Of a stretch of DNA of 10,606 bases, positions 5,423 to 10,606 are shown in pieces. The notes under the pieces were generated by a model that saw nothing but the letters and a program-made list of their open reading frames with translations, was not told the DNA's origin and did no database searches. The first letter of the stretch is position 1. Every line of letters begins with the position of its first letter. A program made the translations under genes and the position numbers. Origin of the DNA: an uncultured Eubacteriales bacterium (lineage in GTDB: Bacteria; Bacillota; Clostridia; Peptostreptococcales; Anaerovoracaceae); contig CADBRY010000229.1 of the NCBI GenBank assembly GCA_902797195.1, positions 1 through 10,606 on the forward strand, given 5' to 3'.

Positions 5423-6490
5423 TTACTTCCCGGCGGCCTTGGCGTTCTCCATTACCATATCCATCACCTTTTGCATGAGCAGATCAAAATGCAGGTCCTG
5501 CGTCATGGTTCTGCCGGTCAGCTCTTCGTACTGCTCTTCGGAGTATCCCTGACTTTCCAGGCTTTCCTTGGCAGTCTCCAGCTCCTTATCCATCTCCTTG
5601 TCGGTGTATGTGATCTTCTCCTTATCGGCGATATCCTGAATTATCATCTCCTGCTTGATCTTGCCTTCCGCCTGCTCCTTGAGGATCTGGTTCATCGTCG
5701 CTCCGTCGGATGCACCGTACTGTGCGTACAGCTGGCTCTTCTCCATGCCCGACTGCTCCGCCATCATATTGAACTGATTCTTATATCCGCCCTGGATCTT
5801 CTTGACCTGGTCCTCAGGATACTTCTTCACTTCCGATGCTTCTGCCACCTCAGACCATAGCTTGCTTTTCTGCTCGTTGGTCTTCTCCTCTTTAATGGTC
5901 TTTTTAAGAGACTTTTCATACTCGGCGGTAGTCTTATATGTGGTGTTGGACTTTACGAACTCGTCGTTATACTCAGGCTTTACCGTCCTCTTAGCCGAAT
6001 TGATCGTTACGTCGAACACAACGTCCTGTCCGGCCAGTTCTTCGCTCTGATAATCCTCGGGGAAAGTCAACGGAAGGCTTACCTTATCACCGACTTTTTT
6101 GCCGATCAGGCCATCCTCAAAACCGGGTATGAAACTGTTGCTTCCGATAACCAGTTCATGGCCCTGGGCAGTGCCGCCTTCAAATTCCTTGCCATCCTTC
6201 TTGCCGACAAAATCGATATTCGTCGTGTCTCCGTCCTTGATGGTGTCGCCCTTCTTAAGGTCGGTTTCCTTTCCTGCCTGAGTGAGAGCGCTGTCGATCT
6301 TCTCGTCTATGTCAGCCTGGGTCACCTTGTCGTAATCCGCGTCAAGCTTCAGTCCCTTGTACTCGCCCAGCTTCACATAGTCGTCAAGATTCAATCCGTC
6401 GTAGGGCATTTTCTCTCCGCAGCCTGCGAGAACAATACACATTGAAGCAGCCACAACAGCTGCAGCAAAAACAACTAAACTTCTTTTCAT
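5423..6490 (-). CDS. Trigger-factor-like FKBP-type PPIase lipoprotein
   Basis: This 355-aa protein has a lipoprotein signal peptide: KR, a hydrophobic stretch, then the lipobox LAGC with the lipidated Cys24. An FKBP-type peptidyl-prolyl isomerase domain follows at about 87-167 (FIPGFEDGLIGKKVGDKVSL at 120-139). Residues about 170-350 are helical and charged, like the trigger factor C-terminal chaperone domain. The ribosome-binding N-terminal domain of cytosolic trigger factor is absent, and the usual FRxGxxP ribosome signature is not present. It probably helps fold exported proteins at the outer face of the membrane, analogous in role to PrsA. The ATG at 6490 is chosen because AGAGG lies upstream and it gives a clean signal peptide; an upstream ATG at 6532 falls in the -10 element. 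Whether isomerase activity is retained is not certain. Confidence 0.9.
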   Translation of the reverse strand: MKRSLVVFAAAVVAASMCIVLAGCGEKMPYDGLNLDDYVKLGEYKGLKLDADYDKVTQADIDEKIDSALTQAGKETDLKKGDTIKDGDTTNIDFVGKKDGKEFEGGTAQGHELVIGSNSFIPGFEDGLIGKKVGDKVSLPLTFPEDYQSEELAGQDVVFDVTINSAKRTVKPEYNDEFVKSNTTYKTTAEYEKSLKKTIKEEKTNEQKSKLWSEVAEASEVKKYPEDQVKKIQGGYKNQFNMMAEQSGMEKSQLYAQYGASDGATMNQILKEQAEGKIKQEMIIQDIADKEKITYTDKEMDKELETAKESLESQGYSEEQYEELTGRTMTQDLHFDLLMQKVMDMVMENAKAAGK

Positions 6491-6530
6491 TATAAATATT
6501 TCCTCTCTGTCTAAATTTCTGACAAGAGCC

Positions 6531-6539
6531 ATTATACCA
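6531..6539 (-). promoter_or_regulatory. Extended -10 promoter of the lipoprotein gene
   Basis: The minus strand reads TGGTATAAT, an extended -10 (TGn plus consensus hexamer). No good -35 lies at 17 bp, which extended -10 promoters tolerate. The start of transcription would be near 6524, so the coding region cannot begin at the upstream ATG (6532). Confidence 0.65.
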
Positions 6540-7028: not shown

Positions 7029-7029
7029 T
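6977..7029. repeat. 26-27-bp tandem duplication next to a promoter
   Basis: tgacacgatttctttacc (6977-6994) and tgacactatctctttacc (7003-7020) begin two units. A third tgac at 7030 is the start of the functional -35 region. The duplication has created an additional consensus TTGACA at 7002-7007, but no -10 hexamer lies at the right distance from it. Confidence 0.55.
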
Positions 7030-7057
7030 TGACTTCAGCCGGGTGAAATGATAGTAT
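7029..7057 (+). promoter_or_regulatory. SigA-type promoter of the cobalamin riboswitch
   Basis: TTGACT (7029-7034) and TAGTAT (7052-7057) are separated by 17 bp. Transcription would start around 7064, about 12 nt before the aptamer. It is the only plus-strand promoter I can support in the window. Confidence 0.75.
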
Positions 7058-7075
7058 GTGTGCAAGAAAATACAG

Positions 7076-7225
7076 GAAGCGAAACATATTCGGAAGCCGG
7101 TGAGAATCCGGCACTGTGTCTCAGCAACCGTGACATCCACGAACGGGCAGTATGCCACTGAACATGCGATTCGGGAAGGCGCCCAAGTAGGCTAAAGATC
7201 AAGTCGGTAGACCTGTTTCAGCTTC
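7076..7225 (+). promoter_or_regulatory. Cobalamin riboswitch aptamer
   Basis: The B12-box blocks are present: GCCGGTGAGAATCCGGC (from 7097), GCAACCGTGA, and near the 3' end AAGTCGGTAGACCTG (about 7201-7215). The ends pair as a long P1: gaagcgaaaca (7076-7086) with tgtttcagcttc (7214-7225), 11 bp with one bulge. The class senses adenosyl- or methylcobalamin; which form is bound here cannot be read. A promoter lies just upstream and an expression platform just downstream (7232-7307). The next gene on this strand, a 103-aa unknown, is not a recognisable cobalamin gene, which is unusual because these riboswitches normally precede B12 synthesis, uptake or B12-independent isozyme genes. Confidence 0.92.
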
Positions 7226-7231
7226 GGCATC

Positions 7232-7307
7232 CGTCTTCTGAGGTGAGACGATCCGGTAAAATGCTTTTTGCGTATATTCGGCACACTCAGAGACGAGTGT
7301 GTTTTTT
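7232..7307 (+). terminator. Riboswitch expression platform with intrinsic terminator
   Basis: The terminator is cacactc/gagtgtg (7282-7288/7295-7301) followed by six T (7302-7307). An upstream cgtcttctgag (7232-7242) can pair with ctcagagacg (7286-7295) over 10 bp with one bulge. This overlaps the terminator's 5' arm and would act as an antiterminator. The same upstream strand can instead fold locally, cgtct with agacg (7232-7236/7246-7250), freeing the terminator. The usual logic would be that cobalamin binding favours termination; that direction is inferred. Confidence 0.75.
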
Positions 7308-7330
7308 AATTAATATCGCCTTTTCATCCG

Positions 7331-7379
7331 CAGATGCAGGAATCGCCCTGATAATTCGGATCCTTCCTGCATCTGTTTT
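7331..7379 (+). terminator. Second hairpin before the small gene
   Basis: cagatgcaggaa (7331-7342) and ttcctgcatctg (7364-7375) form a perfect 12-bp stem with a 21-nt loop, followed by four T. It lies 15 nt before the GGAGG of the next gene. It could be a second, weaker terminator or a 5' stabilising structure on the mRNA. Confidence 0.5.
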
Positions 7380-7403
7380 CCATTGTATACGGAGGCAGAT
7401 CAC

Positions 7404-7715
7404 ATGATGCGATTTGGATGGTTCAAGAATCAGGACAATGTAGTTTATTCAGATGTCAACGAATTTGCCGACCACTTCGGCAAGGAGACCGGAGTCCAGA
7501 ATTTTCGCCGGAAACTGGAGGATTTCCGCAGCCATCCGGTAAAAGAGGGCATACTGATCAAAGGTAAAAAAAGAACCACCCTCAAGCTCTTTATCCCGGA
7601 TCTGCTCTTTGAGGATAAATCCGAGAAGTTGCCCATGGGTGATACTGTCTGGGTCTATATGGGAGAGTACTACCCCTGCCACTGCGTCTACTGGCCGGAG
7701 ACCTCCGATTCATAA
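7404..7715 (+). CDS. Hypothetical protein, 103 aa, downstream of a cobalamin riboswitch
   Basis: I do not recognise this family. The start at 7404 is well supported by GGAGG (7391-7395) 8 nt upstream; an in-frame ATG at 7383 lies before that site. The product is soluble, with no signal peptide or membrane segment. The middle is basic and amphipathic (about 20-70, including NFRRKLEDF and ILIKGKKRTTLKLFIPDLL), which could suit a small winged-helix or nucleic-acid-binding fold, but that is a guess. The C terminus has an aromatic, Cys-rich patch, YYPCHCVYW (89-97; Cys92, Cys94). It is the only plus-strand gene in the window and the only one placed to be controlled by the riboswitch. Its last 28 bp overlap the 3' end of the convergent histidinol phosphatase gene. 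Confidence 0.65.
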   Translation: MMRFGWFKNQDNVVYSDVNEFADHFGKETGVQNFRRKLEDFRSHPVKEGILIKGKKRTTLKLFIPDLLFEDKSEKLPMGDTVWVYMGEYYPCHCVYWPETSDS

Positions 7716-8470
7716 TCATCGAATTTAAAGCACAGGGTATCGGTGCGATGACTGTCGCTGGACAGTATAAAGCTTCCGCCCTGCTCCCTTATATACTCCC
7801 TCATGCTGTCCGAGGGATAGGGCTGGGATCTCAGCCCCCGGGACATGGCTCCCGTGTTGATCTCAAAGGGAACTCCCGCCGGGATGAGTCTGTCCACAGC
7901 CTTTTTCCATGCCGTAACGTATCTTGGGTCCTCTTCGTCGAAGAGGTTTTCTTTTTCGTTGAACTTTGAAACCAGGTCGAAGTGGCCTATGATGCTGCAT
8001 CCGGTTTTCTCCGCAACGGTCCCCACAGCTTCAAAATATTTTTTTTTTTTTTCAATGATGTCCCCGTCAAAATACTTTTCCGCAGCCTCACGCTGGATCT
8101 CACCGGATTCGTCAACGGGGATATATATGATGCCTTTTTCCGCGCCTGGTTCCGCCTCTACTTTCACGTAGTGCACGGACCCTATCCAATAATCCAATCC
8201 TTCCGTGTCCGCGTCGGAACCAAGATCCATTTCAAGGCCCAGCTTGATGGATATTTGGTCGGCATACTTTTCCCTGAGGGCCAGTATCTCACTGCAGTAT
8301 TCCTTCATGCCCTCTTCCGTCAGGCAGTATGTGTCATCGAAATCCGTATGGCTGTGTTCGGAAAAGCCTATCTCAACAAGCCCCTGCCGGACAGCGGCCT
8401 TTACCATTTCTTCGGCGCTTGCGGTGCCGTCACACCTGTTGGTGTGCATATGATAATCCTTCAGTATCAT
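7688..8470 (-). CDS. hisJ: Histidinol-phosphatase, PHP family (HisJ/HisK type)
   Basis: This 260-aa metal-dependent phosphoesterase of the PHP superfamily should convert L-histidinol phosphate to histidinol, the penultimate stage of histidine synthesis. Metal-binding motifs are all visible: HMHT (His7, His9), SEHSH (Glu38, His39, His41), GLE (Glu80), GSVH (His100), GHFD (His163), and SSDSH (Asp239, His241). Length fits the HisJ/HisK family, and position at the end of a his operon supports the assignment over other PHP phosphatases. Its ATG overlaps the hisIE stop by 4 nt (ATGA), implying translational coupling. Residues 141-144 are four lysines encoded by a run of 14 A (8039-8052), an unusual slippage-prone tract. 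Its 3' end overlaps a convergent small gene by 28 bp. Confidence 0.92.
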
Positions 8471-9129
8471 TCGGTCATCTTCTCCTGTTTTACTTTGTGG
8501 TCGATCACGTGGCGGGAGGCCAGTTCCTTTTTTATATCCTCAAGGGATATGCCCATCTCCACCATCATGACCATAATGTGATAAGCAAGGTCTGAGATCT
8601 CATAAACGGTCTCCTTCTTATCGTTGTCCTTTGCGGCTATGATCACTTCCGTAGATTCCTCTCCAACTTTTTTAAGGATCTTATCCATTCCCTTTTCAAA
8701 AAGATAGGTGGTATATGATCCTTCCTTCGGGTCGGTCTTCCTGCCCTCTATCATTTCCATCAGGCCCTGATAGGAAAAAGCCCCTTCCGTATCGCTCTCA
8801 AACACGGGATATTCAAAACAGGATTCCGTTCCAAGATGACATGCGGGGCCGTCGGCGTTGACTTTGACCACAAGGGCATCCCTGTCGCAGTCGGCCGTTA
8901 TGGATACTATGTGCTGATAGTTCCCGCTGGTCTCTCCCTTGGTCCACAGTTCCTGTCTTGATCTGCTCCAAAAACATGTGAGCCCCTTGTCCATGGATAT
9001 CTCAAGGCTCTCTCTGTTCATGTATGCCACAGTCAGGACCCTGCCGCTGGTGGCATCCTGTACCACTGCGGGAATGAGCCCCTTCTCGTCGAATTTCAGT
9101 TCATCTATATTGACCATAGTCTCGCTCAT
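8467..9129 (-). CDS. hisIE: Bifunctional phosphoribosyl-AMP cyclohydrolase / phosphoribosyl-ATP pyrophosphatase
   Basis: This 220-aa fusion catalyses steps two and three of histidine synthesis: pyrophosphohydrolysis of PR-ATP to PR-AMP, then opening of the adenine ring to give ProFAR. The N-terminal HisI domain (about 1-115) shows [18 protein letters not shown] (53-70), the metal site DCDRD (80-84) and Cys97/Cys104 ([10 protein letters not shown]). The C-terminal HisE domain (about 130-215) shows [20 protein letters not shown] followed by [10 protein letters not shown] and the helical [10 protein letters not shown] segment. Both domains look complete. The start overlaps the hisF stop in TAATG, so translation is probably coupled; the nearest AGGA is about 11 nt upstream. 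Confidence 0.96.
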
Positions 9130-9908
9130 TATCTGTCTGTTCCTTTCTGTATTCTCCTTGTAACTATTCCGGCTTTGTCCATGTCCTCTTTTAGATCCTC
9201 TATTTCGATCTCTCCAAAGTGGAAGACTGAAGCCGCAAGGGCCGCATCAATATCCGGTATCTGCCTGAACAGTTCCAGGAAATCCTCGGTGGATCCCGCT
9301 CCCCCCGATGCAATTACGGGAACGTTCACCGCCTCACACACGGCTTTAAGGAGCTCAATGTCAAATCCCTTTTTTACTCCGTCTGTGTCTATGGAGTTTA
9401 CGACAACCTCTCCCGCTCCCCGTTCAACGCATTCTTTGATCCATGAGATGGCTTCCTTGTCCGTCTCCTCTCTTCCGCCCTTGGCGAAAACTCTGAATCC
9501 ATTGTCGGATCTTGCCACATCCACGGAAAGGACAACGCACTGGTCACCGTACTTTCTCGCGGCGGCATCTATGAGGTCGGGGTTTGCAATGGCCCCTGAA
9601 TTCACGCTCACCTTATCGGCTCCGCATTTAAGCACACGGTCAAAATCATCGAGAGAATTTATCCCTCCTCCAACGGTCAGCGGTATGAAAACCTTGCTTG
9701 CAGTCTCCGTCAGGATGTCCGTAAAAAGGCTGCGGCCTTCAGCCGATGCGGTGATGTCGTAGAACACCAGCTCATCCGCACCGCACCGGGAGTAGTGCTC
9801 CGCCAGCTCCACCGGGGATGATACATCGCTGAGATCCTTGAACTTGACTCCTTTGACCACCCGGCCGTTGTTTACATCAAGACATGGTATGATCCTTTTT
9901 GTAATCAT
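9129..9908 (-). CDS. hisF: Imidazole glycerol phosphate synthase, cyclase subunit
   Basis: This 259-aa (beta/alpha)8-barrel is the synthase subunit of the HisH-HisF complex. It uses ammonia delivered by the HisH glutaminase to turn PRFAR into imidazole glycerol phosphate plus AICAR, linking histidine and purine synthesis. The catalytic pair is present: Asp11 in IPCLDV and Asp130 in VLSVDV. Phosphate-binding loops VGGGI (79-83) and ASGGAGS are visible. Length is normal. GGGAG lies 6 nt upstream of the ATG, which overlaps the hisA stop by one base (TAATG). hisH is not in the window and presumably lies upstream of hisA. Confidence 0.98.
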
Positions 9909-10606
9909 TATCTACTCCCTTCTTCCAGGCCCGTTTCAACAGCCCGGGCAAGATCTATGGCACCTATGTAATATGCCTTTCCGATTATCGCCCCATAAAG
10001 TCCCATGGATGCCAGTCTTCTTACGTCATCCATATTTGAAACTCCACCCGAGGCAACTATGTCTATGTCAAAGCGACCGGTCAGTTCTTCATAAAGGTCC
10101 ATATTGGTTCCCTTCATGGCTCCGTCCTTTGATATGTCGGTGACGATCAGGGTTGAAACTCCCATGTCCTCCATACGCCGGCAGAAATCCATGGCCGTTT
10201 CTTCCGACTTTTCCTTCCAGCCTTTTATGGCCACGAATCCGTCCTTGATGTCAACGCCCACAGCGATCCCGGATCCGTATTTTTTTACCGCTTCTCTGGC
10301 AAAGTCCGGATCGGTCACCGCCGCCGTTCCCAGGATCACCCGGTCAAGGCCGGCTTCCATGTATCTGTCCACCGTATCCATGCTTCTGATGCCTCCGCCT
10401 ATTTCGCAAAAAAGTCCCGAGGCTTTTTTTATTCTGCACACGGTATCGAAGTTGGGAGTCGTTCCCTCTGCGGCTCCTTCAAGATCCACTATGTGGATGT
10501 GCTTTGCTCCGCACTCTGCGAACTTCTCCCCGATGGAGGGCGGGTCGTCACTGTAAACGGTCATCTCATCGTAGCGGCCCTTGTAAAGCCGTACTGCCTT
10601 GCCTTC
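9908..10606 (-). CDS. hisA: Phosphoribosylformimino-5-aminoimidazole carboxamide ribotide isomerase (5' end cut off)
   Basis: HisA is a (beta/alpha)8-barrel isomerase that converts ProFAR to PRFAR by an Amadori rearrangement, supplying HisF. The frame is open to the window edge: 14 codons upstream of the internal ATG at 10564 read EGKAVRLYKGRYDE, a typical HisA N-terminal continuation. Only about ten residues, including the first catalytic Asp, are therefore missing. Visible landmarks are GGGIRS (phosphate binding), the second catalytic Asp in TDISKDG with GTN following, and ASGGVSN near the end. The TAA overlaps the hisF ATG by one base. The true start and the operon promoter lie outside the window. 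Confidence 0.96.
   Translation of the reverse strand, partial: EGKAVRLYKGRYDEMTVYSDDPPSIGEKFAECGAKHIHIVDLEGAAEGTTPNFDTVCRIKKASGLFCEIGGGIRSMDTVDRYMEAGLDRVILGTAAVTDPDFAREAVKKYGSGIAVGVDIKDGFVAIKGWKEKSEETAMDFCRRMEDMGVSTLIVTDISKDGAMKGTNMDLYEELTGRFDIDIVASGGVSNMDDVRRLASMGLYGAIIGKAYYIGAIDLARAVETGLEEGSR

Follow-up and report, generated by a model that had tools for sequence, protein, structure and literature searches.

The kissing-loop, P13 and terminator model of cobalamin riboswitch action has been mutation-tested for the P. megaterium metE riboswitch, and that study (PMC10653944) also describes an activating member, so that the direction of regulation is not given by layout alone. Here we analyse a leader of this kind in a 10,606-nt stretch of DNA from an uncultured Eubacteriales bacterium (contig CADBRY010000229.1; this whole stretch is called the window below), in which a cobalamin riboswitch precedes a gene for a 103-amino-acid protein (hereafter the small gene). 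The window leader shares with the metE riboswitch an aptamer, a B12 box and, by prediction, an L5–L13 kissing loop and competition between antiterminator and terminator; relative to the description in PMC10653944, it differs in its loop letters (L5 CUCAG and L13 CUGAG, against a quoted UCCCG consensus), in its predicted antiterminator (made by the L13 region together with the 5' strand of P13, where metE uses the 3' side of P13) and in an additional CUUUUCAU hairpin that follows the terminator. As a riboswitch it is complete and ordinary for its known class; the gene, which has no name, belongs to cobalamin regulons. Because a genuine riboswitch stands in front of it and B12-uptake genes are frequent neighbours, this gene very probably adds a new component to B12 acquisition or handling in gut and rumen bacteria, and we consider it likely that the locus forms a complete single-gene cobalamin-regulon unit whose protein takes part in corrinoid or cobalt acquisition within the cell.

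Riboswitch and small gene across loci

Rfam's cobalamin riboswitch model (RF00174) matched the window at 7092-7212 (+) with 61.1 bits against a gathering cut-off of 31.5, which bears out the complete riboswitch read by the initial annotation; the window's own genome holds three RF00174 places, the third just under the cut-off. Linkage was assessed with a second covariance model (R1), built from 23 cobalamin leaders, 22 of them adjoining the gene, and searched against 80 loci of the gene (782,942 bases; locus numbers carry the prefix L). The window, itself one of the R1 seeds, was matched at 7091-7214 with 86.4 bits. A direct match (E<1e-3, same strand, ≤700 nt upstream) was found at 34 of the 80 loci, a weaker one (E 0.0016 to 0.099) at 6, one further upstream at 4 and none at 36. 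Matches at E<1e-3 numbered 34 in 54,918 upstream bases, compared with 22 in the other 1,510,966 strand-bases. Since 22 of the 34 direct loci were R1 seeds, they were re-checked with Rfam's own model, and RF00174 scored over gathering upstream of the gene in all 34 (41.9 to 124.6 bits; L022 and L025 were scored through their same-contig copies L007 and L006). At four more loci (L046, L052, L085 and L089) a riboswitch over RF00174 gathering heads an operon, with only same-strand open reading frames (ORFs) between it and the gene; at L089, one of the six weak R1 loci, this riboswitch is strong (107.2 bits) and the run that it heads includes PF04071. Riboswitch control is therefore kept in relatives (34 direct and 4 operon-head loci), and riboswitch and gene stay together across genera, as the initial annotation had proposed to check; among the taxa with the family under a cobalamin riboswitch are Emergencia, Anaerovorax, Clostridium aminobutyricum and Flavonifractor, along with many uncultured bacteria of the gut and rumen. 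Among 17 loci from the window's genus, RF00174 scored over gathering in 4 and RF01482 below gathering in 2.

The initial annotation had also raised the alternative that rearrangement cut the riboswitch off from a btu or cob target, leaving the small gene as a chance neighbour. The refuting condition set in the initial annotation had a mixed outcome: a closely similar leader does precede cbiD in genomes of the same genus, but in other relatives it still stands in front of the small gene. The gene also changes neighbourhood: on an 80-row protein tree, 15 changes are needed to explain the riboswitch label, which was given to 45 rows (34 direct, 6 weak, 4 further upstream, and L041). However, the shuffled mean is 26.4 changes, so riboswitch control has been gained or lost several times, though not at random, with the caveat that near-copies add to the clustering; the linkage recurs in distant lineages, and several loci without a direct riboswitch still adjoin corrinoid genes. 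The upstream sequence had been described as repeat-rich, but a repeat search between 6540 and 7080 turned up a single 12-nt direct repeat plus two inverted ones, little to justify that label. Because the adjacency of riboswitch and gene recurs, a stranded riboswitch is very improbable.

Gene company and the small protein

The single downstream gene and its ribosome binding site were as annotated (Table 1). No Pfam or NCBIfam family scored above cut-off for the window protein; nonetheless, homology searches found a conserved family, with 58 proteins at first and then 244 by profile search (homologue details rest on 120 listed of these). No signal peptide was visible by reading. The Cys-His-Cys patch that had been singled out, C92-H93-C94, was rejected as a candidate metal-binding feature of the family, as only C94 is invariant in a 28-row alignment. 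At one locus, a divergent member (30% identity to the window protein) stands in tandem directly before a normal one (L047:254-583 and L047:632-919).

The company of the gene points to corrinoid metabolism, if not at every locus. In the nearest relative by tree path (L023/L160, 91% identity), the gene is the last of an operon that is riboswitch-led from about 9 kb away (RF00174 match at contig 2380-2586; this locus is labelled 'none' on the tree); the all-forward run before it starts with genes for two large secreted proteins and continues with those for a lipoprotein, a permease and an ATP-binding cassette (ABC) ATPase, of which BtuF, BtuC and BtuD were named by reading and the ATPase by Pfam. 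Pfam was run on 25 chosen neighbour proteins. CbiK lies directly upstream of the gene in L085 and L096 (by Pfam) and in L099 (by BLAST cluster), DUF4430 directly downstream in L031, L050, L070 and L087, and periplasmic-binding proteins beside it in L096 and L099. Other neighbours were CbiQ (L054), ABC ATPases (L023, L024, L028), energy-coupling factor and ABC domains (L066), a prenyltransferase toroid (L074), DUF2284 (L082), SLH (L087), fn3 (L046), URO-D (L083) and PF04071 (L089); L050:7336-8841 and L089:4779-5156 gave nothing useful in Pfam. A surface-type cluster of 31 proteins (single-linkage BLAST), several of them DUF4430 proteins, was represented at 18 of the 80 loci. The cysteine-rich small domain PF04071 is fused to or beside family members, and the 103-amino-acid domain itself does not match it: of the 120 listed homologues, 7 contain PF04071 (four such sequences were read), and 15 of 20 genomes with the gene have it, at 17 places, 8 of which lie within about 1.5 kb of a family member (three in one open frame with it) and 8 of which are preceded by a same-strand riboswitch.

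Together, the computed results (the riboswitch, its recurrent linkage, the neighbours and the fusion) support the earlier suggestion of a new cobalamin-regulon member, through linkage across genera, neighbours in corrinoid uptake and synthesis, and the PF04071 fusion. From the gene company alone, our best guess is that the small protein handles corrinoid or cobalt; we infer that it would act inside the cell, in concert with CbiK, BtuFCD-like transport, the surface proteins with DUF4430 and the cysteine-rich domain PF04071. A narrower role, as an accessory for cobalt delivery or chelation specifically for CbiK, would fit the three loci at which the gene directly follows cbiK, the fusion to a putative metal-binding domain and the invariant C94; yet CbiK adjoins the gene at those three loci only, and the gene is present in genomes without detected CbiD (for example, G104, listed as 100% complete), and we regard such a dedicated role as rather unlikely. 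A family repeatedly found under a cobalamin riboswitch gives the search for missing steps in corrinoid acquisition a concrete target.

Several results weigh against the reading of the locus as a cobalamin-regulon unit with a role in corrinoid or cobalt acquisition. Among the 36 loci without an R1 match in the available upstream sequence (7 of which have <1.4 kb upstream), Rfam at gathering found no RF00174 upstream in the 25 examined, 9 of them as same-contig copies with flanks of ≤1.5 kb. L041 (also present as L018) has an RF01482 match below gathering and no RF00174 over gathering upstream; five weak-R1 loci (L027, L040, L043, L077 and L090) lack an above-gathering RF00174 match upstream of the gene on its own strand; and at L100 the riboswitch, 1.7 kb upstream with an opposite-strand ORF between, was not counted. 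The clearest loss is a subclade of nine close relatives without a riboswitch (L030, L032-L036, L038, L039 and L042), in eight of which the next gene reads like NAD(P)H-hydrate epimerase (cluster CL2, named by recognition). Some neighbours fit poorly, namely a resolvase (L065), RmuC (L062), CarD (L064) and, likewise, a helix-turn-helix/zinc-ribbon protein (L085). Across 41 genomes of the genus, CbiD was found in 11 of 18 with the gene and 8 of 23 without it, showing no sharp link, and DUF4430 in 10 of 18 and 15 of 23, respectively, again with no sharp functional link. A structural model of the small protein reached a pLDDT of 92.7. Structure and sequence searches of the small protein returned no match that gives a biochemical function: the best Foldseek match had an E of 1.9 and was a different chain from those of the RNase Sa family (1mgr, 1rge), which show 6-9% identity to the small protein and are not claimed as kin.

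Separate observations were made around other loci. In the window's genome (L161), a cobalamin operon led by cbiD comes directly after an ABC-ATPase-like end; by reading, close relatives have the small gene after a similar ATPase end. A short cobalamin-riboswitch-like leader just under the RF00174 cut-off (L111:4698-4774, -) precedes ORFs whose products resemble, by reading, DUF58 proteins, transglutaminase-type proteins and a secreted protein of toroid type. A lysine riboswitch (RF00168, 69.3 bits) lies near a family locus at L041:4387-4561 (-), and a thiamine pyrophosphate riboswitch (L008:1847-1947) lies just 3' of a family copy that follows an adenosylhomocysteinase-like gene (by reading).

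Leader architecture and predicted switching

The B12 box and closed P1 described in the initial annotation were both recovered, with the P1 arms (7076-7086 and 7214-7225) pairing in the minimum-energy fold. The promoter held up in part: the hexamers are present, but their 9 of 12 consensus matches are no better than chance (1 found, 0.9 expected in the region), so the scan is not significant alone. The proposed antiterminator/terminator pair was likewise reproduced by folding (7226-7310 prefers an alternative fold at -27.4 kcal/mol that pairs the L13 segment with the terminator's 5' arm, and the terminator segment 7262-7312, folded alone, reaches -13.6 kcal/mol), whereas the terminator scan alone (1 found, 0.9 expected by chance in the region) gave no more than chance.

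Table 1 Features of the cobalamin riboswitch leader and small gene in the window
Feature	Position	Strand	Basis
Promoter-like TTGACT-17-TAGTAT	7029-7057	+	Consensus scan, 9/12 matches; TG precedes second hexamer
Cobalamin riboswitch aptamer	7076-7225	+	RF00174, own model R1 and folded P1
L5 CUCAG (DNA CTCAG), predicted kissing loop	7120-7124	+	Complement of L13
B12 box AAGTCGGTAGACCTG	7201-7215	+	Sequence; mostly within RF00174 match
P13/L13 hairpin, loop CTGAG 7238-7242	7232-7250	+	Fold and duplex
Predicted antiterminator, L13 region with 5' arm of terminator	7227-7300	+	Fold; complementarity in relatives
Intrinsic terminator (stem 7280-7303 and T run)	7280-7307	+	Scan and fold
Second conserved element: CUUUUCAUCC, covarying hairpin 7330-7376, UUUCC	7319-7383	+	Fold, covariation, model R2
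Shine-Dalgarno GGAGG	7391-7395	+	Sequence
103-amino-acid protein, conserved family (ATG 7404, 103 codons)	7404-7715	+	ORF; no Pfam or NCBIfam model

Both the L5–L13 kissing loop and the expression platform are present by prediction. In the window, duplex prediction gave L13 pairing energies of -11.7 with L5 and -12.8 with the terminator arm. Sixteen leaders were compared for mechanism (the window, 7 other gene loci and 8 found by the 14-mer CTTTYCATCCGCAG). The L5 motif CTCAGCAAC lay upstream in all 16, the L5–L13 complementarity itself being a prediction, and a script located the terminator in 12 of them. For all but one of the 12, no more than 21 of 500 composition-kept shuffled arms paired as well with L13 as the terminator arm did; the exception was L118, with 73 of 500. 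With corrinoid bound, L5 and L13 would kiss, P13 would form and the terminator would halt transcription; with corrinoid absent, the L13 region would pair with the 5' arm of the terminator and the gene would be transcribed. Because the leader is laid out for this competition (kissing loop, P13, antiterminator and terminator), we infer repression by corrinoid, that is, a transcriptional OFF switch with predicted corrinoid binding and a predicted change in expression, under which the small protein would be made when B12 is scarce.

A second hairpin behind the terminator

The least expected part of the locus is a conserved element, missed by the initial annotation, in which CUUUUCAU, a stem and UUUCC form a hairpin between the terminator and the start codon. 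Fold z-scores of ten examples ranged from -6.10 to -1.61 (window, -4.42). Within the 80 loci, CTTTYCAT occurred 151 times, 32 of them with a strong stem behind, compared with 64 occurrences, 3 with a stem, for the reversed sequence. In an alignment of 13 rows (7 of an earlier 20 were dropped for misaligned stems), the 12-pair stem had 92.4% standard pairs (shuffled, 83.4), both partners had changed in 6 pairs (shuffled, 3.5), and its covariation score was 0.350 against 0.195 when shuffled (0 of 500) and ≤0.179 when slid, bearing in mind that kinship among rows inflates such scores. Rfam assigned no family at threshold to the hairpin; FinP reached 18.7 bits against 45 (antisense) and traJ_5 18 against 50. 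Searches of the literature found no title or abstract start on the CUUUUCAU hairpin or on the small-protein family.

The hairpin is not confined to leaders of the small gene. The exact 14-mer CTTTYCATCCGCAG occurred 18 times in 37 genomes (reversed control, 0), 11 times after a cobalamin riboswitch and 7 times not. In the 41 genomes of the genus, hairpin model R2 gave 21 matches at E<=1e-5 (13 R2 seeds and 8 non-seeds), all of them 33-154 nt 3' of a same-strand RF00174 match; weaker matches exist at E 3.4e-5 to 9.2e-4, and many riboswitches of the genus are without the hairpin. Behind the 21 matches stand cbiD (5; PF01888), the small gene (5), an MKK-start secreted protein (6) and a DUF4430 protein (1), with the gene behind the other 4 not assigned. 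Five same-genus leaders (L114, L116, L122, L127 and L129) have the order riboswitch, terminator, hairpin in common with the window, but precede cbiD where the window leader precedes the small gene. The hairpin also stands directly before the small gene at two loci with an operon-distal riboswitch (L046, L052) and at one where no riboswitch was seen (L074).

Two candidate functions were rejected. The flanks of the hairpin might have masked the Shine-Dalgarno sequence or start codon, but permuted duplexes did as well as those between each flank and its own translation initiation region (n=20, after removal of 14 candidates whose contiguous stem was weak and manual exclusion of L027): for the 3' flank the own mean was -6.42 against -6.92, with 1932 of 2000 permutations as good or better, and for the 5' flank 647 of 2000 were. 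The hairpin was also rejected as a target of the small protein, as it occurs where the gene was not found. The related idea that the protein is an RNA- or DNA-binding regulator of the cobalamin regulon, perhaps acting on this hairpin, draws on a small basic segment (KGKKRT) in the protein and on the frequent position of the hairpin directly before the gene, and we judge it improbable.

For the hairpin itself, a role in 5' stability or translation is a guess. Readthrough mRNA would carry it, as would that of the cbiD and secreted-protein genes behind whose riboswitches it is also found, and its recurrence behind the terminator suggests a second control element in some B12 leaders. Only tentatively, then, do we put forward the two parts jointly, a corrinoid- or cobalt-handling protein family together with the CUUUUCAU hairpin as a second control layer; if true, the locus would combine a dedicated intracellular handling factor made on B12 shortage, in some species fused to a cysteine-rich metal domain, with a new structured RNA behind the cobalamin riboswitch terminators of several operons.

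Elsewhere in the window, a glycine riboswitch (RF00504, 5145-5262, -, 52.4 bits) lies at the start of a sodium:alanine symporter gene (PF01235), and 5423-6532 (-) encodes a trigger-factor-like protein (FKBP_C and Trigger_C) with a lipoprotein-like beginning by reading. Convergent with the small gene is a PHP-domain gene (7688-8470, -), the sole searched protein of its run, after which come ORFs at 8467-9129 (-), 9129-9908 (-) and 9908-10564 (-) that resemble hisIE, hisF and hisA, each named by recognition.
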